Origin: an uncultured Bacilli bacterium
GTDB taxonomy: Bacteria > Bacillota_I > Bacilli_A > RF39 > UBA660
Assembly: GCA_944351765.1 (NCBI GenBank)
Contig: CALVPR010000010.1
Coordinates: forward strand, 1 to 43,505
Reading direction: 5' to 3'
DNA length: 43,505 nt
In this document: piece after piece, positions 1-41,824 of the stretch
How the letters are laid out: each line of letters starts with the position of its first letter
Position numbering within the stretch: the first letter of the stretch is position 1
Position numbers and translations under genes: made by a program
Notes under the pieces: generated by a model
Seen by the model: only the letters and a program-made list of their open reading frames with translations
The model's database searches: none
Told to the model about the DNA's origin: nothing

Positions 1-1540
1 TCATTAGAAAATCAAGTTATGTATTTTGAAAATTATATTAAATCACAAACAAATTGGATATTTGTGAATGGTTATGTCGATGAGGGAATAAGTGGAACTA
101 GTGTCAATAAACGTGATAATTTTTTAAAAATGATAAATGATGCTAAAAAAGGAATATTTAATTTAATACTAACAAAAGAAATATCGAGATTTTCTAGAAA
201 TACAGTGGATAGTATTCAATATACACAAGAATTATTATCTTATGGTGTAGGTGTATATTTTTTAAATGATAACATAAATACTTTTGATTCGGATTCAGAA
301 CTTCGTTTAACTATCATGTCTAGTATAGCTCAAGATGAAATTAGAAAATTATCTGAAAGGGTTAGATTTGGATATAAAAGAAGTATAGAAAAGGGTGTTG
401 TTCCTGGGAATAATAATTTTTATGGTTATAAAAAGAATAAAGGTAAATTAGTAATTGTAGAGGAAGAGGCAAAACTTATCAGATTAATTTTTAATGAGTA
501 TTCAAAAGGAGAAATGGGTACTCAAAGATTAGGACATTATTTATATAATGAATATAATATTGTCAGTAAGACTGGAAAACCACTTGCTGGAACTGTAATT
601 GGTAGAATAATTAGAAATCCAAAATATAAAGGATATTTTTGTGCTCATAAGGAAACAACAGTTGATTATCATTCGAGAAAAAGAATTAGATTTAAGCCAG
701 ATGAATGGATAGTGTATAAAGATAATGAATCGTGTCCACCAATAGTTTCGGAAGAACTTTGGGATAAATGTAATGAGATATTAAATAAAAATTCAAAAAA
801 TTATCAAACTAAAACTAGAACTAATATGAAGTATGCTTTATCAGGGAAAATAAAATGTTATCATGATGGAGCAACATTTATAAAAGGAGCTTATAAAAAT
901 AAGCGAACAGGTGCCATAAGCAAATATTGGGGATGTTCTAATTATAGAAAATATGGTAGAGAAAAATTAAATGGGTGTAAAACACCAATAATTTACTATG
1001 AGGAGTTATTAGAGATATTTGAAAAGGTAGCAGAAAATATTTTAAATAGTGAAAAAGATATGATGAAAGAAATATATAATTTAGTTCGTGAAACAGAGAG
1101 TAAATCAGATTATTCAAGAGAATTAAACGAGTTAGAGAAAAAAATTGTGGAAATCAAAAATGCTAGGGCAGAATTAATAAATATGAGAGCTAGGAAAGAA
1201 ATTGAAGGTGATGAATATAATGATGCTAGGGAGAAGTATAATAGTGAATTAGCTGTTCTTGAGAAAAAGAAACAGGGCTATTTATCAATGAATACAGAGG
1301 TTGATTATAAATCAAATATTGATACTTTTTTTAAAAAAGTGCATGATATAATATTTGAAGACGATGAAAGTGTATTTAGAATCTTTGGATCTATAATAGA
1401 TACCATATTGGTAGAAAGACTTGAACTAGAAGATGATAATATTCATAAAGTAATGTTGCATTTTAAATTAAATATAGCCTGTTACAATAACAGTAGCCTA
1501 AATTTAGATGACTTTTTACTGCTTTTTAGTAACAGCGAGG
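1..1540 (+). mobile_element. Element 1: right end of an integrated serine-recombinase element (left part outside window)
   Basis: The recombinase gene fills the visible part, and the element ends where codons of a conserved D-Ala-D-Ala carboxypeptidase resume at about 1541. The junction (attR) lies roughly at 1536-1542: the SxN motif expected just before DAMVAMAE is replaced by TAR, so its Asn codon belongs to the missing host 5' part. Base composition rises sharply in G+C at the junction. Element size, cargo and attL cannot be seen. Confidence 0.82.
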
Positions 1541-1608
1541 GATGCAATGGTAGCTATGGCCGAGCGAATTGCCGGAACCGAAGAAGCTTTTGTAGAGCTT
1601 ATGAATAA
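1..1608 (+). CDS. Large serine recombinase, 5' end outside the window
   Basis: The frame is open at base 1 and begins SLENQ, the segment that follows the catalytic YxRxS motif in this family, so the nucleophilic serine lies upstream of the window. Visible are the rest of the resolvase fold (DEGISGT, then SRFSRN), the recombinase domain (about residues 140-260), a zinc ribbon with Cys pairs near residues 285-330 and a long coiled coil (about 365-430). The gene points at the element's right junction, as is usual for these enzymes. Its last 20 or so codons run into host carboxypeptidase DNA in a different frame, so its present C-terminus is an accident of integration. In the excised circle a different stop would be used. 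Confidence 0.9.
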   Translation, partial: SLENQVMYFENYIKSQTNWIFVNGYVDEGISGTSVNKRDNFLKMINDAKKGIFNLILTKEISRFSRNTVDSIQYTQELLSYGVGVYFLNDNINTFDSDSELRLTIMSSIAQDEIRKLSERVRFGYKRSIEKGVVPGNNNFYGYKKNKGKLVIVEEEAKLIRLIFNEYSKGEMGTQRLGHYLYNEYNIVSKTGKPLAGTVIGRIIRNPKYKGYFCAHKETTVDYHSRKRIRFKPDEWIVYKDNESCPPIVSEELWDKCNEILNKNSKNYQTKTRTNMKYALSGKIKCYHDGATFIKGAYKNKRTGAISKYWGCSNYRKYGREKLNGCKTPIIYYEELLEIFEKVAENILNSEKDMMKEIYNLVRETESKSDYSRELNELEKKIVEIKNARAELINMRARKEIEGDEYNDAREKYNSELAVLEKKKQGYLSMNTEVDYKSNIDTFFKKVHDIIFEDDESVFRIFGSIIDTILVERLELEDDNIHKVMLHFKLNIACYNNSSLNLDDFLLLFSNSEGCNGSYGRANCRNRRSFCRAYE

Positions 1609-2602: not shown

Positions 2603-4039
2603 ATGGATAATATAATTTTGAACAATTTAATTCAAAAAATAAGAGAATATAATCCAACTGAAGAAAAAATCATCATGAAAGCATATGAATATGCATATAA
2701 CTTACATAATGGGCAAGTAAGACAAAGTGGAGAACCATATATTATGCATCCACTTAATGTTGCATATATTTTGGCAGATATGCATGCCGATAAGGATACA
2801 ATATGTGCAGGACTATTGCATGATACTTTAGAAGACACTAATATTACAAAAGAAGATATAGCCCATGATTTTAATCAAAATATTGCTAATTTAGTAAATG
2901 GTGTCACCAAAATATCTAAAATGAATTTTTCGTCTAAACATGCTCAAAATATGGCAAATACTAGAAAAATTATTACTAGCATTACTGAAGATGTGAGAAT
3001 AATAATAATAAAGTTAGCAGATCGACTTCATAATATGAGAACATTAGAATTTAAAAGTGAATTTAAACAAAAAGAAAATGCTTTAGAAACAATGGAAATT
3101 TTTGTTCCGCTTGCTTACTATATTGGTGCTTATCGTATTAAAAGTGAATTAGAAGATTTATCATTAAGATATTTAAAACCTGATATGTATAAAAAAATAG
3201 AAGACAGAAAATCTCGACTAGAAGAAGAAAGTAATAAATGCTTACAAGAAATGTTATTTAAAATTCAATCTTTATTAAATGATAAAAATATTCCTAACGA
3301 AATTAAAGTTAGAACTAAAAACATTTATGGTATATATAAAAGATTAAATGAAGGACAAAGATTATTTGATATTCATGATTTGCTATCATTAAAAATTATG
3401 GTAGATGAAGTAGCTAATTGTTATTATGTATTAGGAATGATCCATCAAGAGTACCACCCAATAAATGATAAATTCAAAGATTATATATGTAATCCTAAAA
3501 CTAATATGTACCAATCGTTACATACTACTGTATTTGGACCAGATGATAGATTAGTTCAAACACAAATAAGAACTTTTGATATGGATAAAGTAGCATCTTT
3601 TGGTTTAACTGCTTATTGGGATATTAAAAAAGGTAATGCCAGATATGAAATGCAAAAAGACTTAAAAGGAAAGTTTCAATTTTTTAAATCGTTAACTGAA
3701 ATAAATTCAATGTTTGGAGATAATCAAGAATTTGTTAGTCAAGTAAAAACAGAATTATTTTCTGATAGGATTTATGTTTACACAACTAAAGGAGATATAA
3801 TTGAACTACCTAAAGGTTCTACTCCAATAGATTTTGCTTATAAATTAAGTACAGATATAGGTAATACAATGGTAGGAGCTTTTGTAAACGATGAATATGT
3901 CCCAGTAAATTATTTATTAAAAAATAAAGATAGAGTTAGAATTATTACAGACGAATTATCGTTTGGACCAAGAGAAGGCTGGGAAGATATTGCACATACA
4001 AGTTATGCCAAAAAAATGATAAGAGAAATTAGCAAGTAA
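2603..4039 (+). CDS. rel: Rel/SpoT-like (p)ppGpp hydrolase with degenerate synthetase domain
   Basis: Domain order is HD hydrolase (about residues 25-160), synthetase fold (215-345) and TGS (385-450). The protein stops at 478 residues and so lacks the helical, zinc-finger and ACT regions of full-length Rel (about 730). Hydrolase residues are intact: H49, HDTLEDT (73-79) and KLADRLHN (137-144). The synthetase departs at conserved positions: the catalytic Glu of the ExQIRT motif is Gln319 (QTQIRT), the Arg of DLLAxR is Lys264, and the usual AAHW reads TAYW. I infer a protein that mainly or only degrades (p)ppGpp; synthesis would need another enzyme. ATG follows TTAGGGAGGT. Confidence 0.88.
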   Translation: MDNIILNNLIQKIREYNPTEEKIIMKAYEYAYNLHNGQVRQSGEPYIMHPLNVAYILADMHADKDTICAGLLHDTLEDTNITKEDIAHDFNQNIANLVNGVTKISKMNFSSKHAQNMANTRKIITSITEDVRIIIIKLADRLHNMRTLEFKSEFKQKENALETMEIFVPLAYYIGAYRIKSELEDLSLRYLKPDMYKKIEDRKSRLEEESNKCLQEMLFKIQSLLNDKNIPNEIKVRTKNIYGIYKRLNEGQRLFDIHDLLSLKIMVDEVANCYYVLGMIHQEYHPINDKFKDYICNPKTNMYQSLHTTVFGPDDRLVQTQIRTFDMDKVASFGLTAYWDIKKGNARYEMQKDLKGKFQFFKSLTEINSMFGDNQEFVSQVKTELFSDRIYVYTTKGDIIELPKGSTPIDFAYKLSTDIGNTMVGAFVNDEYVPVNYLLKNKDRVRIITDELSFGPREGWEDIAHTSYAKKMIREISK

Positions 4040-16841: not shown

Positions 16842-16859
16842 TTGTGAGGGGTGATACAC

Positions 16860-16987
16860 TTGGCAACATTTAAAGAAATAGTTACAAAAGCAGTTGTAGG
16901 TAAGGGGAAAAAGTATTATAAAAATACTTATACTATAAATACTGAAAATACACCTACTACTGTATTAGGGTGTTGGGTAATAAATCA
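16860..16987 (+). pseudogene. cotE: cotE 5' part, interrupted by element 2
   Basis: TTG 16860, six bases after GAGGGGTG, opens a frame matching the N-terminus of the CotE coat morphogenetic protein: FKEIVTKAVVGKGKKY, then TVLGCWVINH. CotE assembles the outer spore coat in the mother cell. After codon 42 (Asn) and the CA core the frame enters element 2 and stops at 17013-17015, so the present product would be a useless 51-residue peptide. Joining at the core to 24117-24530 restores a 179-residue protein with no lost or added codon. Confidence 0.93.
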
Positions 16988-17009
16988 TCACTTGGTCATT
17001 GGTGATAAC
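16986..17009 (+). other. attL of element 2 (core and element-side arm)
   Basis: Core CA at 16986-16987, then a 22-base arm (16988-17009) ending GGTGATAAC. The reverse complement of this arm matches the right-end arm at 24095-24116 at 17 of 22 positions, starting GTTATCACCAA. The host half-site lies to the left in cotE. Confidence 0.85.
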
Positions 17010-17258
17010 CATTAATAATCTAGCAAAAATTGATAATGTTATTTCTGATTTTTATATAATAACTATAAATTATTGGCAGTAATTAAGTTAAATAAAAAAA
17101 TTATTTTGTATAAGTAATAGTGGCAAGAAATAGTAAATATTAAAAATATATCTAACTTCATTAGGATAAAAAATAGCAAAAATCATCTTTTAAAAAATTA
17201 AATATTAATTATTATTTTGGAAAATAATGTCATTTTTTTCTTTTATTATTTTAAAGTA
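17010..17258. other. Noncoding left end of element 2
   Basis: About 250 very AT-rich bases without a credible gene. I see no clear repeat or promoter until TTGACA at 17259. Confidence 0.6.
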
Positions 17259-17287
17259 TTGACACTAAAGTAAAAAAGTATTAAAAT
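17259..17287 (+). promoter_or_regulatory. Sigma-A promoter of the element 2 cargo
   Basis: TTGACA (17259-17264), 17 bases, TAAAAT (17282-17287). The spacer (GTAAAAAAGTAT) and the TTGAAAGG ribosome region that follows resemble those at 2367-2420 ahead of rel. Confidence 0.75.
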
Positions 17288-17320
17288 ATTGAAAAAATAT
17301 TTGAAAGGTGATAATTATTT

Positions 17321-17488
17321 ATGAGTGCTAATGGATTAATATTTAATAATTCTTATATATTAAGTGTTAGAGATAAACATTATACTAACATAGATTATTC
17401 ATGCTCATTTCTTTCTTTAAATAATATTATTAAAATTGGAGACTACAGAGTTTATAAATTTTGTCGCCAATTTTTTTATATTTTTTAG
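17321..17488 (+). CDS. Short ORF, possible leader peptide (55 aa)
   Basis: ATG lies ten bases after AAAGGTG, downstream of a consensus promoter. The product is basic and Asn-rich (six Asn, including NN pairs at residues 9-10 and 34-35), has no hydrophobic signal, and is not a family I know. Its last third overlaps a hairpin and T run (17438-17486), so ribosome movement over it could decide whether that terminator forms. With an asparaginyl-tRNA synthetase in the cargo downstream, Asn-dependent attenuation is possible but unproven. Confidence 0.45.
   Translation: MSANGLIFNNSYILSVRDKHYTNIDYSCSFLSLNNIIKIGDYRVYKFCRQFFYIF
17438..17486 (+). terminator. Candidate attenuator within the leader ORF
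   Basis: GGAGAC (17438-17443) faces GTCGCC (17463-17468) with one mismatch, and an alternative stem pairs 17445-17452 with 17457-17464. T runs follow. Weak to moderate structure. Confidence 0.45.
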
Positions 17489-17576
17489 AGAATGTATGAT
17501 AATATTATTTAAAGAATTTAAAATTTAGAAAATATAACTCAAAAAATATCAATTAATAGAGATAAAGGGTGATTAA

Positions 17577-18152
17577 ATGAATATAGGTATAGATATTGAT
17601 GATACAATAACAAATTCTAGTGATATTTTTGTTAAATATGCAAAAATTTATAATAAAATTCACAATATAGACCATTCAATCAATACTGATGAATTAGATC
17701 AAAGTAAAGCGTTCGGATGGACACAAAAAAATCAAAAAGAATTTGCTTTACAATATTTAAAGATAATACTTCAAGAAGCTTTGCCAAAAGAGAATGTTAT
17801 TGAAGCCATAAAAAAGTTAAAAGAATTAGGTTGTAATATAATATTTATAACAGCCAGAAAGGATACAGAGGTAGATGGAATGTATGCTCTTACTAAACAA
17901 TGGTTAGATGATAATAATATAGAATTCGATAAATTAGTTGTAAATTGTGATAACAAGTTACAAGAATGTATAAATAATAATATTAAATTGTTTATTGATG
18001 ATAACTATTTTACATGTAAGCAGGTCCATGATTCAAAAAAAATTGAAGTCTTATTATATAAAACTAATTATAATAAAAATTATAAAAATTTAGAGTTTGA
18101 AATAGTTGAAAATTGGAATGAAATAATTGAAAAAGTAAGGAGAAAGTTATGA
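17577..18152 (+). CDS. HAD-superfamily 5'(3')-deoxyribonucleotidase-like phosphatase
   Basis: A 191-residue HAD enzyme of the NT5C type. Motif I is DIDDT (D6 nucleophile, D8 acid), motif II FITARKD, and the acidic motif IV FIDDN near residue 142. Family members dephosphorylate nucleotides or small phosphate esters. ATG follows AAAGGGTGATTAA. It is the first enzyme of the cargo operon, and its TGA overlaps the next ATG as ATGA at 18149. In this context a nucleotide or nucleotide-linked intermediate is the likely substrate. Confidence 0.82.
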   Translation: MNIGIDIDDTITNSSDIFVKYAKIYNKIHNIDHSINTDELDQSKAFGWTQKNQKEFALQYLKIILQEALPKENVIEAIKKLKELGCNIIFITARKDTEVDGMYALTKQWLDDNNIEFDKLVVNCDNKLQECINNNIKLFIDDNYFTCKQVHDSKKIEVLLYKTNYNKNYKNLEFEIVENWNEIIEKVRRKL

Positions 18153-18786
18153 AAAAAAATTAAAATATGTTGATGTGAATAATAGAGAAGATTTTCCACC
18201 AGAACCAGAAGGGTTAAGATTCATTTGCTTTTATGGTGGTACAAAAAATTATAGAGGATATTTAGCCCCATCAAATTTATCAAGAGCAGATTTTATGGAA
18301 CAATATCCTGAATACATTCCAGAGCAAAATATACCAGTATATGAAAATAATGGTATTATTTTGAGAGCTGACCCCAAATATCCCTGTCCCGGATTTTATA
18401 TATTGTCTTTAAATAAAACGTATCGAGCTTTTGACTTAATTGATGATGTTACATTTTTAAGATTTGCTTTTATATTAAAAAAAGCTAAAGAAGGAATGAG
18501 AAAAGTATTAAATTTAAATTATGCTCATCTGTTATCAAATGAAAAATCAGATCCATATGTTAATGTGCATTTTTGGTTAGTTCCTGTAAATGGAATAACA
18601 TCTCCAGATTTATTGGATTTTAATGTAAAAGATTATTTAAATAGTTTTGTACCCAAACATGAAATTGATAAAATAATTTCTTACAATAATGCGTTAAGAA
18701 ATTATTTTAAAGAGATAGATTTAGTTGGACAGGATAATGAGCTTACAGAAACCTTAAATAATAGCAAACAATTTAATTTTCAGTAA
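18149..18786 (+). CDS. HIT-like nucleotide-binding protein with a poly(A) frameshift at its start
   Basis: The long frame runs from GTG 18175 (203 residues), but that GTG has no ribosome site. ATG 18149 has an excellent one (AAGGAGAAAGTT) and overlaps the upstream stop. Translation from it reads MKKN and stops, unless the ribosome or polymerase slips by one base in the run of eight A (18152-18159); it then reads MKKKLKYVDV and joins the long frame. Residues 129-136 (counted from the GTG), VNVHFWLVP-like, align with the HIT triad HxHxHxx: the central catalytic His (H132) is kept and the outer two are Asn130 and Trp134. GalT-type and adenylyl-transferring relatives also vary the outer positions. 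Hydrolase, transferase or binding protein cannot be decided. Confidence 0.6.
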
Positions 18787-18814
18787 AAAAAACATTTGGA
18801 CAGGAGTGATTAGG

Positions 18815-19699
18815 ATGCATTTAAATATATTTGTAAGTCAAAAATGTTTTTTATATTGTAAAGGATGCTATAGCTTTTCTAGAATCGAAAAATGCGGACA
18901 ATTTATTTCTACCAAAACATTGGTTTCGTTTCTTAAATTTGCTTATAATAAAGGAATAAATAAAGTTACTTTGTGTGGCGGTGATCCTTTGACACGAAAA
19001 GATATTATAGAGCTTTTAAAACAAATAAAAAGTATTGGGTATTTAATTTCTCTTGATACAGTTGGTACATCTATTATAAAATCAATCAAAAATAATGGAG
19101 AAGTAATAGCAGAAAAAACACCAGCAAAAGAAATAGCACAACTTGTTGATAATATAGGAATTCCTATTGATGGTTCTACAAGTGAAATATTTAAGTTATT
19201 TAGACAATCAAATTCTGATTTATTGTCAGAACAATTAAAAATATGTGAAGAACTTCATAAATATGGTGCTAATATATGTATTAATACTGTTGCTCATAAA
19301 GGGAATTTATGTGATGTATATAATTTAAGTTCTTTAATAAAAAAATTAGATTACATACAAAAGTGGCAAATATTTCAATATGCACCTTTAGGAAAATATG
19401 GAATATTAAATAGAGAAATGTTTGAAATAACAGAAAATGAATTTAATAATTATAAATCTAAAGTATTAAAAGTATTAAAAGATAATGATAAAATTCAGTT
19501 TAAAGATTTTAAGGAAAGAAACAAGGCATATATGTTAATTGATAATTCTGGTAATGCTTGGATACCAGTTTATGATGAAAAATTATTTAGTGACAAAAAT
19601 ATAAAGATAGAAGAAAGAAAGCTAATTGGAAATATAAATAATGTAGATGATTGGGAAAAAATATGTAATTGTTTAAGAAAAGAAGATGATAGAAAATGA
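18815..19699 (+). CDS. Radical SAM enzyme of unknown reaction
   Basis: Canonical cluster motif CX3CX2C at C11, C15 and C18, followed by the SAM-binding GGDPL motif (GGEP type). At 294 residues it has a full radical SAM barrel and no SPASM Cys set, so it probably carries only the one 4Fe-4S cluster. That argues against a typical peptide-maturing SPASM enzyme and leaves a small-molecule or nucleotide substrate open. ATG 18815 follows CAGGAG; the GTG at 18806 overlaps that site. Its TGA overlaps the next ATG, so it is translationally coupled to the synthetase gene. Confidence 0.85.
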   Translation: MHLNIFVSQKCFLYCKGCYSFSRIEKCGQFISTKTLVSFLKFAYNKGINKVTLCGGDPLTRKDIIELLKQIKSIGYLISLDTVGTSIIKSIKNNGEVIAEKTPAKEIAQLVDNIGIPIDGSTSEIFKLFRQSNSDLLSEQLKICEELHKYGANICINTVAHKGNLCDVYNLSSLIKKLDYIQKWQIFQYAPLGKYGILNREMFEITENEFNNYKSKVLKVLKDNDKIQFKDFKERNKAYMLIDNSGNAWIPVYDEKLFSDKNIKIEERKLIGNINNVDDWEKICNCLRKEDDRK

Positions 19700-21090
19700 G
19701 ACATGAAGATATAAAATCAGTTTATAATCAAGAAGAATATATAGGAAAAGAAATAACTGTTTGTGGTTGGGTAAGGACAATTCGTAGGTTAAAAAATATG
19801 TGTTTTGTTGAAATAAACGATGGTACATCATTAAAAAATCTACAGTTAGTTGTTGATAATAATAATCTTGAAAATATGCAGTTTTTTAAGCAATTAAGTG
19901 TTGGTTCTTCAATAGCAGTAAACGGTATTGTTGTAAATTCAATAAATCCAACACAAAAGATAGAATTAGAAGTAAAAAAAGCTCAACTATTAGGAGATTG
20001 TCCAACGGATTATCCTATTCAAAAGAAAAAACAAAATATGGAGTATTTAAGGGAGTATGTACATTTAAGAACGAGAACAAATACTTTTAATGCAGTATTC
20101 AGAGTAAGAAGTGTTTTAGCAAAAGCAATTCATGATTATTTTCAAGAAAATAACTTTATTTATATAAATACCCCAATAATAACAGGAAGCAATTGTGAGG
20201 GGGCTGGAGAAATGTTTAGAGTTACAACTTTAGATATTGATAAAGTTTCTAAAGAAAATTACAATCCCAATATATATGATATGGATTTTTTTGGTAAAAA
20301 AGTAGGTTTAACCATTTCGGGCCAACTTGAAGCAGAGGCTATGGCATGTAGTTTGGGAAAAGTATATACCTTTGGTCCGAGTTTTAGAGCAGAAAATTCA
20401 AATACAAAACGCCATGCTGCTGAGTTTTGGTTAATTGAACCAGAAGTTGCATTTGCAGATTTAAATGACATTATTGTTATTATTAATGATATTGTAAAGT
20501 TTATAATCAATAGGGTATTAGCGGAATGTTCAGAAGAAATTAAGTTTTTTACAAAATTTTATGATAATAGTTTATTTAATAGACTGATAAATGTAGTCGA
20601 AAGTGATTTTGGAATTTTAGATTATACTGATGCAATAAAGTTTTTAGAAAAATCAGATCTTGCTTTTGAATTTCCGGTATATTGGGGATGTGATTTAAAA
20701 AATGAACATCTTAGATATTTAACTGATGTTGTATATAAGAAGCCAATGTATTTAATTAATTATCCCAAAAATTTAAAACCATTTTATATAAAAACAAATG
20801 CTGATGGTAAAACTGTAGCTTCAGCAGATTTATATTTTCCAGGAATAGGAGATATTATTGGAGCATGTCAAAAGGAAGATAATTTTGAATTATTAAATAA
20901 TAGAATAAAAGAATTAAATATGACTGAAGAAGATTATTACTGGTATATGGATCTTAGAAAATACGGAACAGTACCACATAGTGGATTCGGAATTGGATTA
21001 GAAAGATTAGTTATGTATACAACTGGTATAGATAACATTAGAGATACAATAAGTTTTCCAAGAACTAAATGTAAAAAATTAAAATTGTAA
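19696..21090 (+). CDS. asnS: Asparaginyl-tRNA synthetase paralogue carried by element 2
   Basis: Full-length class IIb synthetase (464 residues): N-terminal OB fold (about 15-110; GWVRTIRRLKN), motif 1 region, TGSNCEGAGEMF, motif 2 FRAENSNTKRHAAEF and motif 3 GFGIGLERLV. These identify the AsnRS branch and keep its catalytic arginines. Two stretches are unusual: the GGSQREER segment of bacterial AsnRS reads GACQKEDN (residues 389-396), and the usual FPRTPG end is FPRTKCKKLKL. Being on a mobile element among modifying enzymes, it may be a resistant copy protecting against an AsnRS inhibitor, or an enzyme that activates Asn/Asp for a biosynthetic step. It could also simply charge tRNA-Asn. Confidence 0.9.
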   Translation: MRHEDIKSVYNQEEYIGKEITVCGWVRTIRRLKNMCFVEINDGTSLKNLQLVVDNNNLENMQFFKQLSVGSSIAVNGIVVNSINPTQKIELEVKKAQLLGDCPTDYPIQKKKQNMEYLREYVHLRTRTNTFNAVFRVRSVLAKAIHDYFQENNFIYINTPIITGSNCEGAGEMFRVTTLDIDKVSKENYNPNIYDMDFFGKKVGLTISGQLEAEAMACSLGKVYTFGPSFRAENSNTKRHAAEFWLIEPEVAFADLNDIIVIINDIVKFIINRVLAECSEEIKFFTKFYDNSLFNRLINVVESDFGILDYTDAIKFLEKSDLAFEFPVYWGCDLKNEHLRYLTDVVYKKPMYLINYPKNLKPFYIKTNADGKTVASADLYFPGIGDIIGACQKEDNFELLNNRIKELNMTEEDYYWYMDLRKYGTVPHSGFGIGLERLVMYTTGIDNIRDTISFPRTKCKKLKL

Positions 21091-21180
21091 AAATTGATTA
21101 AATAACTAAAAATACATGGAAATATAAAAAAATTAATAAGATTTAAAATCATTAATAGAAAAAGGAAAGAAGGTAAAAAT

Positions 21181-21927
21181 ATGAAAATTCAAAAGAAAAT
21201 AATAGCAATTGGGGGAGGAGAAAACGGAAGAATTTTAGAAGATGGGAATTTTGCTCCATATAATACAAAAGAAATAGATGAAGAAATAGTTAAGCTGTCT
21301 AACAAAAAAAATCCAAACTTTTTGTTTATTAATCACGCAATGCAATCTCTCGAAACACAAGAAAGTTATTTTCAAACTATGAAAAAAATATATGGAGATA
21401 AACTTAATTGTTTTTGTGATGATTTAAAAACAACAGAATTAGAAAATAAAGAAAAAGTATGTAAAAAACTTAAATGGGCTGATATTATATATGAAGGCGG
21501 CGGTGACACTGCATATATGATTGATTTATGGAAAAAAACTGGTTTTGACAAATTATTATATAATGCATGGCTTGATGGAAAAGTTATAAGTGGAATTTCT
21601 GCTGGAGCAATGTGTTGGTTTAATTCTGGTAACTCTGACAGTGAAGAAGAATTTACTAATTTGGATTGTTTGGATTGGATTAATTTTTATGTTACTCCCC
21701 ATGCTAATGAAGATGGAAGAATTGAATCTTCTATTAAACATTTAAATGATAAAAAAATAAATGGTATATTTTTATCAAATTGTTGTGCCCTAGAAATAAT
21801 AGATAATAATTATAAGATAATAAAAAGTTCAAATGATGCTTTTGCTTATTTGGCATTTTGGAGGAATAATCAATTATATAAAAAAGAATTACCAGAAAGC
21901 GGAAAAATTGATGACATAAACATGTAA
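21181..21927 (+). CDS. Peptidase E-like serine hydrolase (S51 family)
   Basis: A 248-residue enzyme of the class I glutamine amidotransferase-like fold with Ser nucleophile: GGGENGR near the N-terminus, EGGGDTAYM (105-113), nucleophile elbow GISAGAM (Ser140), and TPHANEDGR. Peptidase E splits Asp-Xaa dipeptides, and relatives include cyanophycinase. In a cluster with an AsnRS paralogue, a role in removing or releasing an aspartyl/asparaginyl group from a compound is attractive but inferred. ATG follows AGAAGG. The gene is 90 bases after asnS and ends at a terminator. Confidence 0.83.
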   Translation: MKIQKKIIAIGGGENGRILEDGNFAPYNTKEIDEEIVKLSNKKNPNFLFINHAMQSLETQESYFQTMKKIYGDKLNCFCDDLKTTELENKEKVCKKLKWADIIYEGGGDTAYMIDLWKKTGFDKLLYNAWLDGKVISGISAGAMCWFNSGNSDSEEEFTNLDCLDWINFYVTPHANEDGRIESSIKHLNDKKINGIFLSNCCALEIIDNNYKIIKSSNDAFAYLAFWRNNQLYKKELPESGKIDDINM

Positions 21928-21954
21928 AAAAATAGAATTTATTTCTATTTTTTT
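21926..21954 (+). terminator. Terminator of the element 2 cargo
   Basis: AAAAAAATAGAA pairs with TTCTATTTTTTT around TTTAT, starting at the stop codon. It separates the cargo from the recombinase unit. Confidence 0.8.
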
Positions 21955-22149
21955 ATTAATTAGTTAATTGGAAATAATGTTTTTATTATTTTGTATTAAT
22001 AATAAATTTATTTTTTATATTATTTAATTATCATTAAATTCTCATCTATTGAAATCGTTTTATGAAAATATTTTAATTTAAATTACACCAATTGTAAAAA
22101 TGCTACAAAAAATATTATAAAAATACTTTTTTAATTTTTAATTTTTAAA

Positions 22150-22176
22150 ATATTTTATTAAAAAAAACATATATTT
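22150..22176 (+). promoter_or_regulatory. Candidate sigma-E-like promoter for the 39-aa ORF and recombinase
   Basis: ATATT (22150-22154), 13 bases, CATATATTT (22168-22176), close to the B. subtilis sigma-E pattern. In DNA this AT-rich chance matches are common. The rest of 21955-22201 shows no gene. Confidence 0.35.
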
Positions 22177-22201
22177 AATTGAATAAGAAAGAGGTGATAA
22201 A

Positions 22202-22321
22202 ATGAACAAAAATTTAAAGATAAATATATTTTATAAAAATGAAGGTAATACAATATTAGAAATTTTAGAGCAAGATTTTAAAGACTTTTTTAATGACTAT
22301 ATAAAAAAACATGTTAAATAA
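22202..22321 (+). CDS. Small protein upstream of the recombinase (39 aa)
   Basis: ATG follows AGAGGTGATAAA, a strong ribosome site. The charged product (starts MNKNLKINIFYK, ends DYIKKHVK) is probably a short strand followed by a helix. Small ORFs often precede large serine recombinases. A recombination directionality factor, as with the 58-residue SprB of phage SPbeta, is one possibility; I see no sequence proof. Confidence 0.6.
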   Translation: MNKNLKINIFYKNEGNTILEILEQDFKDFFNDYIKKHVK

Positions 22322-22333
22322 ATCAATAAATAT

Positions 22334-22402
22334 GGATTCAATTTAGCTAATATTTTTAAAATGATATTTTACACTGTTGGTTATATTTAGCAATTTGAAT
22401 CC
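22334..22402 (+). repeat. Inverted repeat in the recombinase leader
   Basis: GGATTCAATTTAGCTAA (22334-22350) and TTTAGCAATTTGAATCC (22386-22402) are near-perfect inverted copies around 35 bases, ending 18 bases before the recombinase ATG. It could be an operator or an RNA hairpin limiting recombinase expression. Confidence 0.6.
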
Positions 22403-22420
22403 TTCAATAGGGGAGATAAT

Positions 22421-24082
22421 ATGAATTATAATTCTAGTATCGTTAACTTATTACTAAAAAGGTATAAATCTGAAGAAATTGCCAAATATATCAGGCTGTC
22501 ATTAGCTGATGAAATTAAAAAAGATGAAATAAATAAACAAATAGACGAGAGTGAAAGTGTTACCAATCAAAGAAGATTAATGAACGAATTCATTGATCGA
22601 AATGGTAATGTGGGAGAACTTTGTAAAGAGTTTATTGATGATGGTGTTAGTGGAACTAATTTTGATAGACCGGGATGGAACAAGCTACAAGAAGAAATGG
22701 AATCCGGAAAAATTAAAGTAGTAATTACTAAAAATTTATCAAGACTGGGAAGAAGTAATTTTGAATGTAGTTATTTTTTGGATTATTATTTTCCAGAAAA
22801 CAATATACGATACATTGCTATTCAAGAACAAATAGATACTTTTAATAATGAAAATTCAAATAACGAATATGCTGCACTTAACAATTTTATTAATGAAAAA
22901 TATTCTAGAGACTTATCAAAAAACATTAAAAGAGTCTATCGTATTAAACAACAAGCGGGAGAATACATGGGTGGAAGACCTGTATACGGTTATATAAAAG
23001 ACCCAAACGACAAACATAAATTAATAATTGATGAAGAAGCATCAAAAGTGGTAAAAAGAATATTTGAACTTTATTTACAATTGCATTCTCAAAGCGGAGT
23101 TATGAAAATTCTAACTAAAGAAAAAATTCCCATACCTGAAGTATATAAACAAACAAGAAGAGGAATTAAAGTAAAGAATCCTTATGATTGGAATTATCAT
23201 ACAGTTAGAAATATTTTAAGAAATCAAATGTATATTGGAGATATGGTTCAAAATGTCCATATAAAAAAAAGTTTTAGAGAGAAAAAAATTATTAAAACTT
23301 CTAAAGAAGATTGGATAATCGTTGAAGGTACTCACGAACCAATTATTGATAAAGATACTTTTTATAGAGTTCAAAATTTATTAGATGCTAATTATAGACA
23401 ACCTACAAAACCTTATGAAAGAATTTTTGGAGGTATAATGTATTGCCACGAATGTGGCCATAAAATAGGTGTTGGTAATCCTAAAAAAAACAGTGGACCT
23501 AAAGGAAAACAATATCTTTATACCTATTGTAATTATTATAGAAAGAATAGTTCTTATAATAAATGCACTCCTCACACTATAAACTACAATAATTTAGAGT
23601 ATGAATTATTATCAATTATTACTTCTATATGTAATAAGTATATAACTTTAATAGGATATGATGATATTGTAAATAATAGGAAAAAAACGTTAAATACTTA
23701 TATAGATGATTTAGAAAAAAAGATGAGCAGATTAGAAATTGATATTAAGGGTATTGATTTAAAAATTGAAAAGTTGTATATGGATAGATTAGATGACATT
23801 ATTACTCCTGATACATATAAAAAATTAACAGACAAATTTGAAGAACAAAAAAAGTCAAAGCAAAAAGAATTTGATGAGTTGAAAATAAGTATAGAAGAAT
23901 ATAAAAATAACAATCCTATTGAACAACTTTTAGAAACTAAAACTATTGTAAAAGAATATTTAAAAACTAGAAAAAAAACACCTAGAGAACTTATATTAAA
24001 AATTGTTGATAAAATAGAAATTCACAAAGATAAAAATATCGATTTATATTTTAAATTAAAGCAACTGAATGAAGTTGTTTAA
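22421..24082 (+). CDS. Large serine recombinase of element 2
   Basis: Catalyses integration and, with a helper, excision of element 2. Catalytic motif YIRLS with Ser27, DDGVSGTNFDRPG and the LSRLGRS helix make the resolvase domain (about 20-170). A recombinase domain (about 185-300), a zinc ribbon (CHECGHKIG, later Cys pair near residues 368 and 385) and a long coiled coil (about 425-510) follow. 553 residues is normal. ATG follows AGGGGAGATAAT. It stops 12 bases before the attR arm and points outward at the junction. Confidence 0.95.
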   Translation: MNYNSSIVNLLLKRYKSEEIAKYIRLSLADEIKKDEINKQIDESESVTNQRRLMNEFIDRNGNVGELCKEFIDDGVSGTNFDRPGWNKLQEEMESGKIKVVITKNLSRLGRSNFECSYFLDYYFPENNIRYIAIQEQIDTFNNENSNNEYAALNNFINEKYSRDLSKNIKRVYRIKQQAGEYMGGRPVYGYIKDPNDKHKLIIDEEASKVVKRIFELYLQLHSQSGVMKILTKEKIPIPEVYKQTRRGIKVKNPYDWNYHTVRNILRNQMYIGDMVQNVHIKKSFREKKIIKTSKEDWIIVEGTHEPIIDKDTFYRVQNLLDANYRQPTKPYERIFGGIMYCHECGHKIGVGNPKKNSGPKGKQYLYTYCNYYRKNSSYNKCTPHTINYNNLEYELLSIITSICNKYITLIGYDDIVNNRKKTLNTYIDDLEKKMSRLEIDIKGIDLKIEKLYMDRLDDIITPDTYKKLTDKFEEQKKSKQKEFDELKISIEEYKNNNPIEQLLETKTIVKEYLKTRKKTPRELILKIVDKIEIHKDKNIDLYFKLKQLNEVV

Positions 24083-24094
24083 AAAAGCAAAAAA

Positions 24095-24118
24095 GTTATC
24101 ACCAAAAACCATGACACA
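24095..24118 (+). other. attR of element 2 (element-side arm and core)
   Basis: A 22-base arm starting GTTATCACCAA (24095-24116), then core CA (24117-24118); the cotE half-site follows. Joined to the left arm in the circle it gives an attP of 22 + 2 + 22 bases. Confidence 0.85.
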
Positions 24119-24530
24119 TAATTTTAAAGGGTTCGAAGAAAATGATAAAATTGTTATAACAGGTAGTTTTGATGTAAATATTTGGTATTCTTATGATAAT
24201 GATACTAAAACTACTGTTATAACAAAAACAATTGATTACAGGGAAGTAGTTAATGTTTCTACAAGAGCAAATAGTGATACTACTAATAGAGATATTATTG
24301 TAAGAAGTCTAAAGCAACCTAGTTGTGTTAATGCCAAAGAAAATGGAAATTCTATTGAATTTGACATCGAAAAAGAATTAGGAATAGAAATAGTCGGAGA
24401 TACCAAAGTTAAAATTGCAATTGAAGATGATGAAGAACCATGGGATATTATTCCCGATGATAATTTATCAAATGAAGTAGAAAAAGAAATTGGTAACAGT
24501 GTAAAAGAAGATTATTTAGATAAAAAATAG
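24117..24530 (+). pseudogene. cotE: cotE 3' part, interrupted by element 2
   Basis: Encodes the main part of CotE: GSFDVNIWYSYDNDTKT (B. subtilis GYYDINVWYSYADNTKT), a KQPSC segment, EIVGDTKVKIAIED and an acidic tail. No in-frame stop or frameshift is present. An in-frame ATG at 24069 inside the recombinase gene opens this frame but adds element-coded residues and has no matching N-terminal coat sequence. The last 19 bases overlap the converging phosphodiesterase gene. Confidence 0.93.
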
Positions 24531-25272: not shown

Positions 25273-27033
25273 GTGTTGGGTAAGATAATTAGTATTGATA
25301 ATAATAAAGTAATTGTAAAGTTAGACATAAATGTATATGAAACAAATAATTTAATGGGTAAAAATGTTGTATTTAAAGACAATAATGTATCAGTAATCGG
25401 AGAAATAATATCTGTAAATAATAATGTCATGACTGTATCTTTACTTGGGGAAATTCAAGAAGATAAGTTTATATATGGAGATATTACAAAACCTTCATTT
25501 AATTCTAAATGTAGACTTATTACTAATAAAGAATTAGATGTTATCTTTAATAATAATGCTGATAACAATATGATTATAGGTAAATCTTTTATATATAATG
25601 ACTATGATATAAAGTTAGATATAAATACTTTCTTTTCTAATCATTTTGCTATATTAGGTAATACTGGATCCGGAAAAAGTTATAGCGTTGCTAAAATAAT
25701 TCAATCAATATTTTATAATTATAAATATTTGCCATTTAGAACTAATATATTTTTGTTTGATGCTTATGGAGAATATCAACAAGCATTTAGTAAAATAGGG
25801 GAAACTAACGAAAACATTAATTATAAAGTATATACAACAGATTTAAAAAGTAAAAAATATGATTTATTACAAATACCTTTTTGGTTACTTACATTAGATG
25901 ATATATGTTTGCTTTTAAATGTTGATAATCCTTTACAAATACCTATTATTGAAAAATCATTAAAATTAGTAAGTTATTTTGCAAGAAATGATGAACAGGT
26001 AATAAAACAAAAAAATGATATTATTGCAAGATGTTTATTAGATATAATTTATAGTGGTTCAAAACCAATTGAAATAAGAAATAAAATAATTTCCACTTTA
26101 ACTAAATTTTATACAAATAATATTAATTTAGATTTAAAGTTAACTAAAGGCGGTTGGACTAGAACTTTAAAACAATGTATATTCATTGAGCCTTCGGGAA
26201 AACTTGCAGATATTGAAATAGTTATATCATATTTAGAAAGCTTAACTTCTAATAATTTTGAGTTATCCATGCCTAATGGAGAAATTAAATATACAATTAA
26301 TGATTTTTATAATGCTTTAGAGTTTGCAATAATATCAGAAGGGGCAATTAATAGTAATAATATATTTGAATACAGTAATACACTTAAAATAAGACTTAAT
26401 TCTATTATAAATAGTGACTATGTTAATTACTTTAATTTTAATGAATATATAAGTAAAGAAAATTATATAAAATGGTTATTAACTACTAAAGGCGGTAAAA
26501 AGGCTCAAGTAATCAATTTTAATATTAATTATGTTGATGATAGATTTGCTAAAACACTTGTAAAAATTTATTCCAAATTATTATTTGATTATATAACTAA
26601 ATTAAATAAAAGAGCATCTTTTCCGTTTCATATTATTTTAGAAGAAGCCCATCGTTATGTACAAAATGATAATGATATTAATATATTAGGATACAATATA
26701 TTTGAAAGAATTACTAAAGAAGGAAGAAAATATGGTATACTTCTTGGTTTGATTTCCCAAAGGCCGTCAGAAATTAGTCAAACTGCTTTATCACAATGTA
26801 GTAACTTTCTAATATTTAAAATGTTTCATCCTGCAGACTTAAATATTGTTAAAGACATAATTGCAAGCACTAGTGATAGTTTAAGTGATAAGTTAAAAAC
26901 TTTACATCCCGGAACTTGTATAATGTTTGGTAATGCCTTTAAAATGCCAATAATAGCTAAATTGGATATGCCAAATCCTGAACCATTAAGTAGTAATTGT
27001 AATATAAATGAAACATGGTATATAAAAAATTAA
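25273..27033 (+). CDS. HerA-like DNA-translocating ATPase (DUF87)
   Basis: A 586-residue FtsK/HerA-superfamily ATPase: N-terminal HAS-type beta barrel (about 1-100), Walker A GNTGSGKSYS (about 130-139), Walker B FHIILEEAHR and the C-terminal ISQRPSEIS segment with an arginine-finger-like region. It starts with GTG 25273, well spaced after AGGTGAT. HerA normally works with the NurA nuclease in end resection or with defence nucleases; no such partner adjoins it here. It stands alone between promoter and terminator, so it looks like a core gene of unknown role. Confidence 0.85.
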   Translation: MLGKIISIDNNKVIVKLDINVYETNNLMGKNVVFKDNNVSVIGEIISVNNNVMTVSLLGEIQEDKFIYGDITKPSFNSKCRLITNKELDVIFNNNADNNMIIGKSFIYNDYDIKLDINTFFSNHFAILGNTGSGKSYSVAKIIQSIFYNYKYLPFRTNIFLFDAYGEYQQAFSKIGETNENINYKVYTTDLKSKKYDLLQIPFWLLTLDDICLLLNVDNPLQIPIIEKSLKLVSYFARNDEQVIKQKNDIIARCLLDIIYSGSKPIEIRNKIISTLTKFYTNNINLDLKLTKGGWTRTLKQCIFIEPSGKLADIEIVISYLESLTSNNFELSMPNGEIKYTINDFYNALEFAIISEGAINSNNIFEYSNTLKIRLNSIINSDYVNYFNFNEYISKENYIKWLLTTKGGKKAQVINFNINYVDDRFAKTLVKIYSKLLFDYITKLNKRASFPFHIILEEAHRYVQNDNDINILGYNIFERITKEGRKYGILLGLISQRPSEISQTALSQCSNFLIFKMFHPADLNIVKDIIASTSDSLSDKLKTLHPGTCIMFGNAFKMPIIAKLDMPNPEPLSSNCNINETWYIKN

Positions 27034-27065
27034 ACATAATCTTTAAATGTAGATTATGTTTTTTA
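27033..27065 (+). terminator. Terminator of the HerA-like gene
   Basis: AACATAATCT and AGATTATGTT form a 10-bp stem around eight bases, followed by TTTT. Confidence 0.85.
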
Positions 27066-27148
27066 TGAAAATAAATATTAATATAACATTTACTTTTATA
27101 TAAATTATGATAAAATATATATTGCATATAAATTAATAGGTGATATAT

Positions 27149-28783
27149 ATGAAAGAAGTAAAAATAGAATTAACTGAACTTTGTAATAGATGGTGTAAAC
27201 ACTGTTCTAGTAAAGCAAAAAACACTGATTATAAGTCATTAGATATTGATACAGTTAAAAGAATAATTGATGAATCAAAAGAAATAGAGGCTAAAAGTAT
27301 TGTTTTAACAGGAGGAGAAGCAACACTATATCCAAAATTAGATGAAGTAATTAGTTATGCTAGTAATAACGGACTTGAAATAAAATTATATTCAATGTGT
27401 GATCCTATTTTAGAAAATATCCAACATTTAGGCTATCTAAATACTATTGGTCTTAAGGAAATTATTTATTCTACAACTTATAATCTTACTTTAGATGGAG
27501 TTGTAACACTAGATAAATTAAAAGAATTTTTTCCTTTATTATTAGATAAAACTAATATTAGATTAGGGGTTCATCATGCTATTTTAAAAGATACTGTATA
27601 TGATATAGATGAATTAATTAAACTATTCTTTAGCTTAGATGATACTAAAACAACAAACTTATCTTTCCTTAGATATGTTCCTCATGGAAGAGGTACTAAA
27701 GACTTACTTTTAAATAGAGATGAACTTATATGGTTTAGAAATAAAATGATTGAATATAAAAAAATATATGGAGATAAAATTAGATTAGGTAGTCCTTGGA
27801 ATTTTTTAGGGATTGAAAAAACAGAATGTAGTGCGGCAGAGAAATCTTTAATAGTAGGCTTTGATGGTAATGTTTATCCATGCGATGCGATGAAATACTT
27901 TGATTATTTAGGTAGTGGTGGAAATATATATCATAATTCTTTAAAAGAAATATACAATTCTAAATATTTTAATGATATTAGAACATTTAAAAAATGTAGT
28001 AGTTTAGAATGTTTAGAATGCTCTAATTATGAAATATGCAAAGGTGGATGTTTAGGTCAAAAAATGGTTGCATTTATTAGTCCTGATACTTTAACATTTA
28101 AAAAATATGGAATACTAGCAAGAAGAACTATGAATACCTTCGATACTGAAGAAATTAAGAAAATGAATGGAGAAATGGGTATTGTCGGAGAAATTGGTGA
28201 ACTTATTGATTCGTTTAAAAAATATAAAACCCATAATTTAAATGCTGATAGTAAAAAGAAATTAAAAGAAAATTTAATTATTGAAGTAGGGGATATTGTA
28301 TGGTATTTAGCAGCATCACTATCTAGTTATTATGATATTGATTTTGAAAATATAGGTAAGTACATTCAAAATAGTACTAATAAAGAATTAGAGAGAAAAG
28401 TATTTGATACTCCAATATTACTTCAAAGTATAAAAACAAGAGATCCTGAATGCTTATTAAAATCATCAAGTAATGAAATAGATATTAGTATTTTAGATAA
28501 CAATACTGAAGATTATAACTTTAATAACGAATGGAAAAAACTTGTTTATTATGCTTGTCAAATAATTTATTTAAGTGATAAGGACAAATTAATTGAAACT
28601 ATTACTAATTTACTTCTTACTTTGTCAAGAATTGCTAATATTGAACTTGAAATATCAATGAATGAAGTATTAAAAAGAAATATAGATAAACTAAATAATC
28701 GATATAAACAAGGATATGATAGAGAAGTAGCAAATAAAAGAATTAAATTATTAACTAATTATAAAGAAAGTGAAGCTAAATAA
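27149..28783 (+). CDS. Radical SAM/SPASM enzyme fused to a MazG-like pyrophosphohydrolase domain
   Basis: Residues 1-225 form a radical SAM domain with C12, C16 and C19 (CX3CX2C) and TGGEAT. About 225-320 is a SPASM region (CDAMKY, CLECSNYEICKGGC) that should hold auxiliary iron-sulfur clusters. From about 335 the sequence is MazG-like: EIGELID and EVGDIVWYL give the ExxE and ExxD metal sites, and the end (NIDKLNNRYKQGYDRE) matches MazG-like C-termini; the helix pattern seems to recur after a linker, suggesting two MazG-like halves. Fusion implies a reaction on, or clean-up of, a nucleotide compound. ATG 27149 follows AGGTGATAT. Confidence 0.83.
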   Translation: MKEVKIELTELCNRWCKHCSSKAKNTDYKSLDIDTVKRIIDESKEIEAKSIVLTGGEATLYPKLDEVISYASNNGLEIKLYSMCDPILENIQHLGYLNTIGLKEIIYSTTYNLTLDGVVTLDKLKEFFPLLLDKTNIRLGVHHAILKDTVYDIDELIKLFFSLDDTKTTNLSFLRYVPHGRGTKDLLLNRDELIWFRNKMIEYKKIYGDKIRLGSPWNFLGIEKTECSAAEKSLIVGFDGNVYPCDAMKYFDYLGSGGNIYHNSLKEIYNSKYFNDIRTFKKCSSLECLECSNYEICKGGCLGQKMVAFISPDTLTFKKYGILARRTMNTFDTEEIKKMNGEMGIVGEIGELIDSFKKYKTHNLNADSKKKLKENLIIEVGDIVWYLAASLSSYYDIDFENIGKYIQNSTNKELERKVFDTPILLQSIKTRDPECLLKSSSNEIDISILDNNTEDYNFNNEWKKLVYYACQIIYLSDKDKLIETITNLLLTLSRIANIELEISMNEVLKRNIDKLNNRYKQGYDREVANKRIKLLTNYKESEAK

Positions 28784-41101: not shown

Positions 41102-41824
41102 CATTAATACTTTTCTTTTTCTTATAATTTTATAAATTTCATTTACAATATCTTCTCTACTATCATAGTCAACCTTACCATCATTAAAACCTCTGAAAGT
41201 TTTTTTCTTTATTTCATCTATAGTTACATTTTCATCAAAAATATTAGCAACCTTTTTTTCATACTTATAAAGAGAATTAAGATATTCAATAGTTGTTCTT
41301 ATACTTTTACCATCTTTTATTGTAAATTCTTGATGATCTCTAATTGTATCAAAACAAGGTATTTTTAACAATTTTTCTTTTTCCTCTTTCAAATCAACAA
41401 ATTTTTGATTCAAAAACTCTAATACTTTTTTATTACTAAGTATATCTTTTTTATTATATGGAATGGAAAACATTACATTTTGAAATACAATAAGAGAAAT
41501 TAACATACTTAAAGTAAATATAAAAACATTAAAAAGTGGAATATAAATTGTTAAAGTATTAATAATATTTGTAATAAATGGGACAAATGAAACCAATATT
41601 ACAAATAGCACTAAACCAAAAGATCTTAACTTCTTTTTTTTGTTAGTTAGTTTCCTTTTTTCTATAGTATCTTTTACAATTTCTTCTTCTGCATTTATTT
41701 GTTCTAATAAATTATCAATTTCAGCAACTCTTATTAAATTAAGATTATTAATTTCTAACTTTTTTTCTTCTAAATCACTATATAAAACGACTGTACCATT
41801 TTTACATCCTATTTTTCTATACAT
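41075..41824 (-). CDS. Hypothetical membrane protein
   Basis: Not recognised. About 70 N-terminal residues that include a charged coiled-coil-like stretch, two to three hydrophobic helices (about 68-120), and a charged C-terminal cytoplasmic region of about 125 residues. ATG 41824 on the minus strand follows GGTGGTGGTAGTG and overlaps the end of tcdA, so it is translationally coupled to it. Confidence 0.78.
   Translation of the reverse strand: MYRKIGCKNGTVVLYSDLEEKKLEINNLNLIRVAEIDNLLEQINAEEEIVKDTIEKRKLTNKKKKLRSFGLVLFVILVSFVPFITNIINTLTIYIPLFNVFIFTLSMLISLIVFQNVMFSIPYNKKDILSNKKVLEFLNQKFVDLKEEKEKLLKIPCFDTIRDHQEFTIKDGKSIRTTIEYLNSLYKYEKKVANIFDENVTIDEIKKKTFRGFNDGKVDYDSREDIVNEIYKIIRKRKVLMKKTKYKEL

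Follow-up and report, generated by a model that had tools for sequence, protein, structure and literature searches.

Results

A five-gene cassette carried by an integrated element

The subject of this analysis is a 43,505-nucleotide stretch of DNA from an uncultured Bacilli bacterium (hereafter the window; contig C10 of a 64-contig, 1.29-Mb draft genome, GenBank CALVPR010000010.1), and in particular a cassette of five genes at positions 17577-21927. An initial annotation made from the letters of the window had placed this cassette within a mobile element and assigned it a HAD nucleotidase, a HIT-like protein, a radical SAM (S-adenosylmethionine) enzyme, a paralogue of asparaginyl-tRNA synthetase (AsnRS) and a peptidase. 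Indeed, all five genes were recovered on the forward strand, the last as a member of peptidase family S51 (Table 1). The mobile location was likewise confirmed, and its exact edges were set by empty sites: in five genomes of the same genus (loci L066-L070) the alignment to the window continues until 16988 and restarts at 24117 with zero gap. The gene disrupted at this site is cotE-like (Pfam 2e-28 for its 3′ part), with a reading frame that is intact in L066, and its halves lie on either side of the element in the window (16851-16988 and 24117-24530). CotE is an outer spore-coat protein, and for serine-recombinase elements within sporulation genes excision during sporulation is possible. Since the inserted ~7.1 kb otherwise contains only one small open reading frame (ORF) and a large serine recombinase, the cassette is the sole evident cargo of the element.

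Two gene junctions had been described as overlapping ATGA motifs. That between the radical SAM and AsnRS genes (19696) stands, while that between the HAD and HIT genes (18149) does not, as its ATG is one base out of frame at a run of eight A residues. Across the corresponding interval (18149-18175) homologous cassettes such as those at L014 and L016 start the HIT gene in frame; therefore the window gene either starts at the GTG at 18175, or the A run is mis-assembled, or it is slippery.

Table 1. Features of the cassette and its element (window coordinates)
Feature	Position	Strand	Evidence
Integrated serine-recombinase element, ~7.1 kb	16986..24117	.	CAT common to both edges; based on empty sites
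Promoter-like site TTGACA-17-TAAAAT	17259..17287	+	Consensus scan 11/12; such matches common in AT-rich DNA here
Candidate leader peptide ORF, 55 aa	17321..17488	+	Open frame; ribosome-site-like AAAGGTGAT
Structured leader	17413..17516	+	RNA fold z -5.9; outer perfect stem of 18 bp around terminator-like hairpin 17432-17480, then U run
HAD phosphatase, 5′-nucleotidase-like	17577..18152	+	DxDxT motif (DIDDT); Pfam/NCBIfam HAD-type matches weak, under curated cut-offs
HIT-fold protein, degenerate triad NVHFW, core gene	18157/18175..18786	+	Start uncertain: GTG 18175 or out-of-frame ATG 18149
Viperin-like radical SAM enzyme, CX3CX2C, core gene	18815..19699	+	PF04055 5e-13; PADLOC pVip 3e-22
AsnRS paralogue, class A (E386D, G390A, S391C, R393K)	19696..21090	+	Equivalog match 5e-180
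S51 family peptidase, GISAG nucleophile, conserved His	21181..21927	+	PF03575 5e-37
AT-rich hairpin terminator	21924..21956	+	RNA fold -11.4 kcal/mol, z -4.9
Large serine recombinase, CcrC/XisF-like	22421..24082	+	NCBIfam CcrC 7e-29, XisF 2e-28, both under cut-off

A constant core recurs with exchangeable partners

A scan of 84,980 species genomes with a profile of the HIT protein returned eight loci, one repeating G050 and one repeating G061, and further searches added G1037 (Table 2). The HIT and radical SAM genes are adjacent in 10/10 loci and thus represent a constant core. The whole five-gene set, whose co-occurrence elsewhere had been proposed as a check on the cassette, was found in four other Bacilli genomes (G050, G061, G289 and, across a contig gap, G293), which argues for more than a chance association. 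In three Clostridia (G288, G291 and G292) the AsnRS is replaced by a second phenylalanyl-tRNA synthetase (PheRS; subunits PheS and PheT), and a nucleoside phosphorylase lies beside the core in three Clostridia.

Table 2. Gene order at the ten loci (:: denotes a fusion)
Locus	Gene order
Window	HAD-HIT-rSAM-AsnRS-S51
G050 and G289	HAD-HIT-rSAM-AsnRS-S51
G061	HAD::HIT-rSAM-AsnRS-AsnRS-S51
G293	HAD::HIT-rSAM, contig end; AsnRS-S51 at start of another contig
G288	PheS-PheT-HIT-rSAM
G291	HAD2-nucleoside phosphorylase-PheS-PheT-HIT-rSAM
G292	S51-PheS-PheT-HIT-rSAM-nucleoside phosphorylase-HIT2
G290	HIT-rSAM-S51-HAD, then Lsa-like ABC-F gene
G1037	Truncated HIT-rSAM-nucleoside phosphorylase
rSAM, radical SAM enzyme

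The HIT protein is more conserved than the radical SAM enzyme, the S51 peptidase or the housekeeping AsnRS between the same genomes, as would fit horizontal spread. At G292 a MobV relaxase stands on one side of the cassette and a tyrosine recombinase on the other, so that more than one kind of element has probably carried it. Weak matches to the HIT protein in other genomes, where looked at (the G049 match was left out), were ordinary HIT proteins of the HFHIW type without cassettes; searches of viral contigs and plasmids revealed no relative of the HIT protein, and the radical SAM enzyme was not found in phages and had plasmid matches of only 20-27% identity.

We also observed that in G050 (L013, 304-1743) and G293 (L022, 3939-5420) the cassette sits directly 3′ of a short RelA/SpoT-type gene (HD, synthetase and TGS domains). 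A similar gene is present in the window at 2603-4039, ~13 kb upstream of the cassette.

The core pairs a degenerate HIT protein with a viperin-like radical SAM enzyme

The HIT-fold protein has no Pfam match and was placed by predicted structure. Its AlphaFold model (pLDDT 69.6, pTM 0.63) retrieved HIT proteins for all of the top 50 Foldseek matches (E 6e-4), and a second aligner, VIA, matched it to HIT with a Z of 10.9 over 125 residues; both place it in the Fhit/Hint/Ap4A-phosphorylase fold. Identity to the window protein is 69-77% in every intact member, from Bacilli and Clostridia alike. In place of the HxHxH triad of the superfamily these proteins carry an invariant N-V-H-F-W (NxHxW), retaining only the central His. 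The closest proteins from outside the cassettes read HFHIW (L054), from which it follows that the residue kept is the central His of the triad, which we take to be the catalytic one.

The radical SAM enzyme was modelled with a pLDDT of 79.7, and its 21 best PDB matches by Foldseek were all viperin (TM about 0.7). The cysteines of the viperin CX3CX2C motif (C11, C15 and C18) are invariant. At the motifs K-x-N and R-W-K, which we take to correspond to the nucleotide-site lysines of mouse viperin (220/222 and 245/247), the cassette members read C-x-N and K-W-Q: C155 and Q185 are invariant in 9/9 members, at positions where solved viperins, as well as L058, L059, L009 and L010, have Lys. The Escherichia coli pVip at L012 also deviates at the second motif. 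Viperin yields the 3′-deoxy-3′,4′-didehydro form of a nucleoside triphosphate; with its lysines replaced, the cassette enzyme is therefore best called viperin-like, and classing it as a synthase of the CTP form (ddhCTP) would not be warranted. In the other cassettes it is 51-63% identical to the window enzyme.

Other viperin-like genes were seen in the course of these comparisons. Genomes of the same family (L009, L010 and L011) encode one that is 31% identical to that of the window, beside NUDIX, GrpB-like and phosphatase-like genes, and those of L009 and L010 retain K-x-N and R-W-K. On an E. coli conjugative plasmid (L012, 7980-9990) a viperin-type radical SAM gene occurs with a deoxynucleoside kinase and NudI, near a lasso-peptide cluster.

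The cassette synthetases are additional copies with altered sites

The window AsnRS scores as a full-length class IIb enzyme (PRK03932, 599 bits against a cut-off of 414) and is the second in its genome, 46% identical to the other copy. A separate housekeeping AsnRS is present in every genome with an AsnRS-type cassette, bearing out the proposal of the initial annotation that the cassette enzyme is an extra copy, in the window genome as in all those with the five-gene set. Similarly, G288, G291 and G292 each encode a separate housekeeping PheT, with which the cassette PheT shares only 25-29% identity.

All six cassette AsnRSs group in a single clade (support 100/100) apart from eight housekeeping AsnRSs, and, with the root inside this clade set by the housekeeping enzymes, a derived group that we term class A (99/98) arises within it while near-canonical class B enzymes lie at its base. 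Class A comprises the AsnRSs of the window, G050, G061 (copy a) and G289, which deviate at 13-21 of 108 conserved columns defined on 37 reference AsnRSs; class B comprises G061 copy b and G293, which deviate at only 3-5. E386, G390 and R393 are invariant in 37/37 reference enzymes and read D, A and K in class A. Of these changes G390A is common to all cassette AsnRSs, E386D and R393K are additional in the four class A enzymes, and the active-site Glu and Arg are canonical in both class B enzymes. In class IIb synthetases this Glu takes part in holding the Mg bound to ATP, and the Arg makes contact with the side chain of the amino acid. By alignment E386 and R393 are residues 361 and 368 of Thermus thermophilus AsnRS, and a survey of synthetase contacts names a single Glu and a single Arg as the side-chain contacts of AsnRS, to the Asn amide (PMC7387524). 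The picture that these sequences suggest is of an AsnRS that would have been acquired, duplicated and then altered at its substrate site. The window enzyme is changed at the substrate pocket and could be something other than an ordinary protected AsnRS. This series from class B to class A resembles a natural drift of a synthetase to a new task. The cassette PheTs, for their part, lack the conserved editing-domain motifs of housekeeping PheTs (GQPMHAFD reads GLPVVALK and GVMGG reads GVCTLK).

The accessory enzymes

The HAD protein is 44-50% identical in the other cassettes and is fused to the HIT protein in G061 and G293. The S51 peptidases of the other cassettes are 53-59% identical to that of the window; in an alignment of seven, the Ser of GISAG and the His are invariant, and by spacing the third position, Asp in the Ser-His-Asp triad of MccG, is probably Asn in most. 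The earlier label of peptidase E had to be given up, as the window protein belongs to S51 but is not an orthologous PepE (20.8 bits with the PepE model against a cut-off of 156); with the cyanophycinase model it scored 38 against a cut-off of 126.6.

A probable attenuator precedes the cassette

The cassette had been assigned one promoter and a terminator. The AT-rich terminator hairpin holds up, and the promoter is best described as a promoter-like match. What that description did not mention is a candidate leader ORF and an attenuator-like hairpin between this site and the first gene. Upstream of the cassettes of G061 (L014) and G289 (L016) the sequence can be aligned with that of the window, and shares TTGACA, a short ORF at the equivalent position and a strong terminator hairpin at the same position ahead of the HAD gene (z of -4.6 and -6.0, respectively, by RNA fold), although the leader product of the window is only loosely similar to theirs. 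The structured leader is thus a probable transcription attenuator, and the arrangement of promoter, ORF and hairpin points to attenuation through a translated leader; such a leader peptide, by sensing translation, would probably gate expression of the cassette. An Rfam search revealed no T-box or other element in the cassette, the T-box of L055 belonging to the housekeeping pheST, and no tRNA gene lies close to the cassettes. The short upstream ORF also raised the idea of a ribosomally synthesized and post-translationally modified peptide, which we rejected as a leading explanation because the radical SAM enzyme lacks a SPASM extension, the ORF overlaps the terminator-like hairpin and it encodes a peptide with no more than a loose likeness to the L014 and L016 products.

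Within the Clostridial version at G291 (L053, 13125-13215), very stable hairpins (z -8.7) lie between the cassette PheT and HIT genes and are a possible attenuator or processing site.

Neighbouring features of the window

A second large serine recombinase at the start of the window (19-1608) abuts the 3′ part of a D-Ala-D-Ala carboxypeptidase-like gene (1508-2332), and is apparently another small recombinase element within a coding gene. At 25273-28783 a HerA-like ATPase is followed by a radical SAM/SPASM protein, apparently fused to a MazG-like domain; this pair is a conserved neighbour of the empty site in same-genus genomes.

Discussion

The cassette unites kinds of enzyme known from albomycin and from microcin C, and its synthetase alternates while its core stays. 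Our leading reading is therefore a mobile module for making or remodelling a compound that resembles an aminoacyl-nucleotide and is linked to one particular aminoacyl-tRNA synthetase, a reading we adopt tentatively and hold somewhat short of an even chance. In such a module the viperin-like radical SAM and HIT pair would supply the common part of the compound, the former through radical chemistry on a nucleotide sugar and the latter by breaking or transferring the phosphate bond of the nucleotide. The choice of amino acid would fall to the exchangeable synthetase, AsnRS or PheRS; following the albomycin precedent, this paralogue might supply the aminoacyl-adenylate, resist the product, or both. 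Trimming or self-immunity would be the part of S51, HAD and, in Clostridia, nucleoside phosphorylase. Here we infer the substrate, the product, the direction of each reaction and the purpose. The initial annotation had suggested that the cassette makes, modifies or detoxifies an aspartyl- or asparaginyl-nucleotide-like compound. We retain its aminoacyl-nucleotide part as a tentative reading, together with its literature precedent for S51 and HIT immunity, but not the tie to Asp or Asn, because in three Clostridia it is a second PheRS that accompanies the same core. The constant part is the pair of HIT protein and viperin-like radical SAM enzyme, not the peptidase.

Several observations weigh against this reading. 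No cassette contains an exporter, an MccB-like carrier-peptide synthetase or a dedicated ligase, which makes an intracellular role or pure resistance serious alternatives. The HIT triad is reduced to its central His, and with both viperin substrate-site lysines replaced the nucleotide is not predictable. G288 and G291 are without any S51, and the Clostridial G290 and G1037 (the latter with a truncated HIT) carry the core without a second PheRS, G290 having a single AsnRS, in a comparison in which other synthetases were not checked; the synthetase is therefore not obligatory.

The main rival, itself rather doubtful in our estimation, is a resistance cassette that only detoxifies an aminoacyl-nucleotide antibiotic of other gut bacteria: S51 would remove the amino acid, HIT would cut the phosphoramide, HAD and nucleoside phosphorylase would clear the remainder, the synthetase paralogue would serve as a target copy that the antibiotic does not affect, and the cassette would be turned on by the leader attenuator when translation is hit. 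MccG (S51) and MccH (HIT) act in this way on microcin C, an exporter or precursor gene occurs in none of the loci, the cassette travels alone on mobile elements, there is an attenuator with a leader ORF, and in G290 it adjoins an Lsa-like ABC-F ribosome-protection gene. The class B AsnRSs, off at so few invariant columns and at one in the active-site strand, are also what one might expect of a resistant target. However, a radical SAM enzyme without an obvious place in detoxification is found in every locus, the R-to-K and E-to-D changes of class A would presumably impair normal activation of Asn, and we know of no antibiotic against AsnRS or PheRS from these habitats. The obligatory radical SAM enzyme and the class A active-site changes thus argue for chemistry beyond detoxification.

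We consider it improbable that the cassette is a viperin-type antiphage defence, in which infection would lead the radical SAM enzyme to make a modified nucleotide that the altered synthetase turns into a block of one aminoacylation. Such a role would be consistent with the PADLOC pVip match and viperin fold, with compact mobile cargo and with HIT, HAD and nucleoside phosphorylase being nucleotide enzymes. Yet every cassette member has Cys and Gln where solved viperins and nearby bacterial ones have two lysines in common, there is no nucleotide kinase partner as at the pVip loci L012 and L058, and no further PADLOC match falls in the cassette. Finally, a loose accessory collection, with a spare AsnRS as a dosage or stress copy sharing an operon with unrelated metabolic enzymes, would suit five families that each exist separately in bacteria and class B copies that resemble a working AsnRS, but is very improbable given the recurrence of the set in four other genomes with differing surroundings, the HAD-HIT fusions, the constant HIT-radical SAM pair in 10 loci and the exchange for PheRS on the same core.

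Returning to the synthetase-linked nucleotide compound, a bolder form of this reading, which we judge unlikely on balance but worth stating, is a new class of module in which the fixed HIT and viperin-like core with its exchangeable, re-purposed synthetase builds an amino-acid-specific nucleotide effector, and in which a change of synthetase would direct the module to a different branch of translation. The altered amino-acid and metal positions in AsnRS and the lost editing motifs in PheRS may be signs of such re-purposing. If the leading reading is true, the cassette would extend synthetase-linked nucleotide systems from their actinomycete and enterobacterial examples to uncultured gut Firmicutes. 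It would be unusual in that one core has paired with two unrelated synthetases, and would place a viperin-like enzyme in a context other than chain-terminating nucleotides. To our knowledge few natural inhibitors of AsnRS or PheRS have been described, and the combination of HIT NVHFW and a viperin-like radical SAM enzyme offers a search key for compounds acting on either.

Relation to known systems

The component families are known, and it is their combination, the synthetase swap and the class A AsnRS that are new to us. The statement of the initial annotation that no named system has this set agrees with our finding no PADLOC system and no open-access paper describing it.

With viperin/SAND systems the cassette shares a radical SAM enzyme whose nearest solved fold is viperin and which has the CX3CX2C cluster motif, but it differs in the C-x-N and K-W-Q motifs, in lacking a kinase partner and in its other neighbours. 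The likeness to albomycin lies in a second, divergent synthetase beside the housekeeping copy, together with a radical SAM enzyme in one cluster: AbmK is a seryl-tRNA synthetase (SerRS) paralogue that supplies seryl-adenylate and confers resistance, and the radical SAM enzyme AbmJ is thought to act on the nucleoside sugar (PMC9032320). The cassette differs in having AsnRS or PheRS instead of SerRS and a HIT-fold core protein in addition, in having no pyridoxal phosphate or siderophore genes and no transporter, and in the absence from most members of an AbmF-like second synthetase.

As in microcin C, S51 and HIT enzymes occur together in the locus; enzymes of both families cleave aminoacyl-nucleotides, and MccG (S51 clade V; PMC9239234) and MccH (HIT; PMC7157772) are immunity enzymes against the aminoacyl-nucleotide of microcin C. 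All ORFs of 16986-24117 were accounted for and none is ThiF-like, leaving no MccB with a precursor peptide that ends in Asn in the element; the only ThiF-like ORF of the window (41817-42506) lies ~18 kb outside it. No transporter is present in the element and none is common to the other loci. Unlike microcin C, the cassette adds a viperin-like radical SAM enzyme, a HAD enzyme and a synthetase paralogue, and its HIT triad is NxHxW. The leucyl-tRNA synthetase of agrocin 84 and the isoleucyl-tRNA synthetase of mupirocin are reportedly antibiotic-linked resistant synthetase copies (PMC9032320), and like them the cassette enzyme is a second divergent synthetase beside nucleotide or antibiotic genes. 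In contrast to both, the other genes are not common to these systems, and the cassette alternates two unrelated synthetases on one conserved core.

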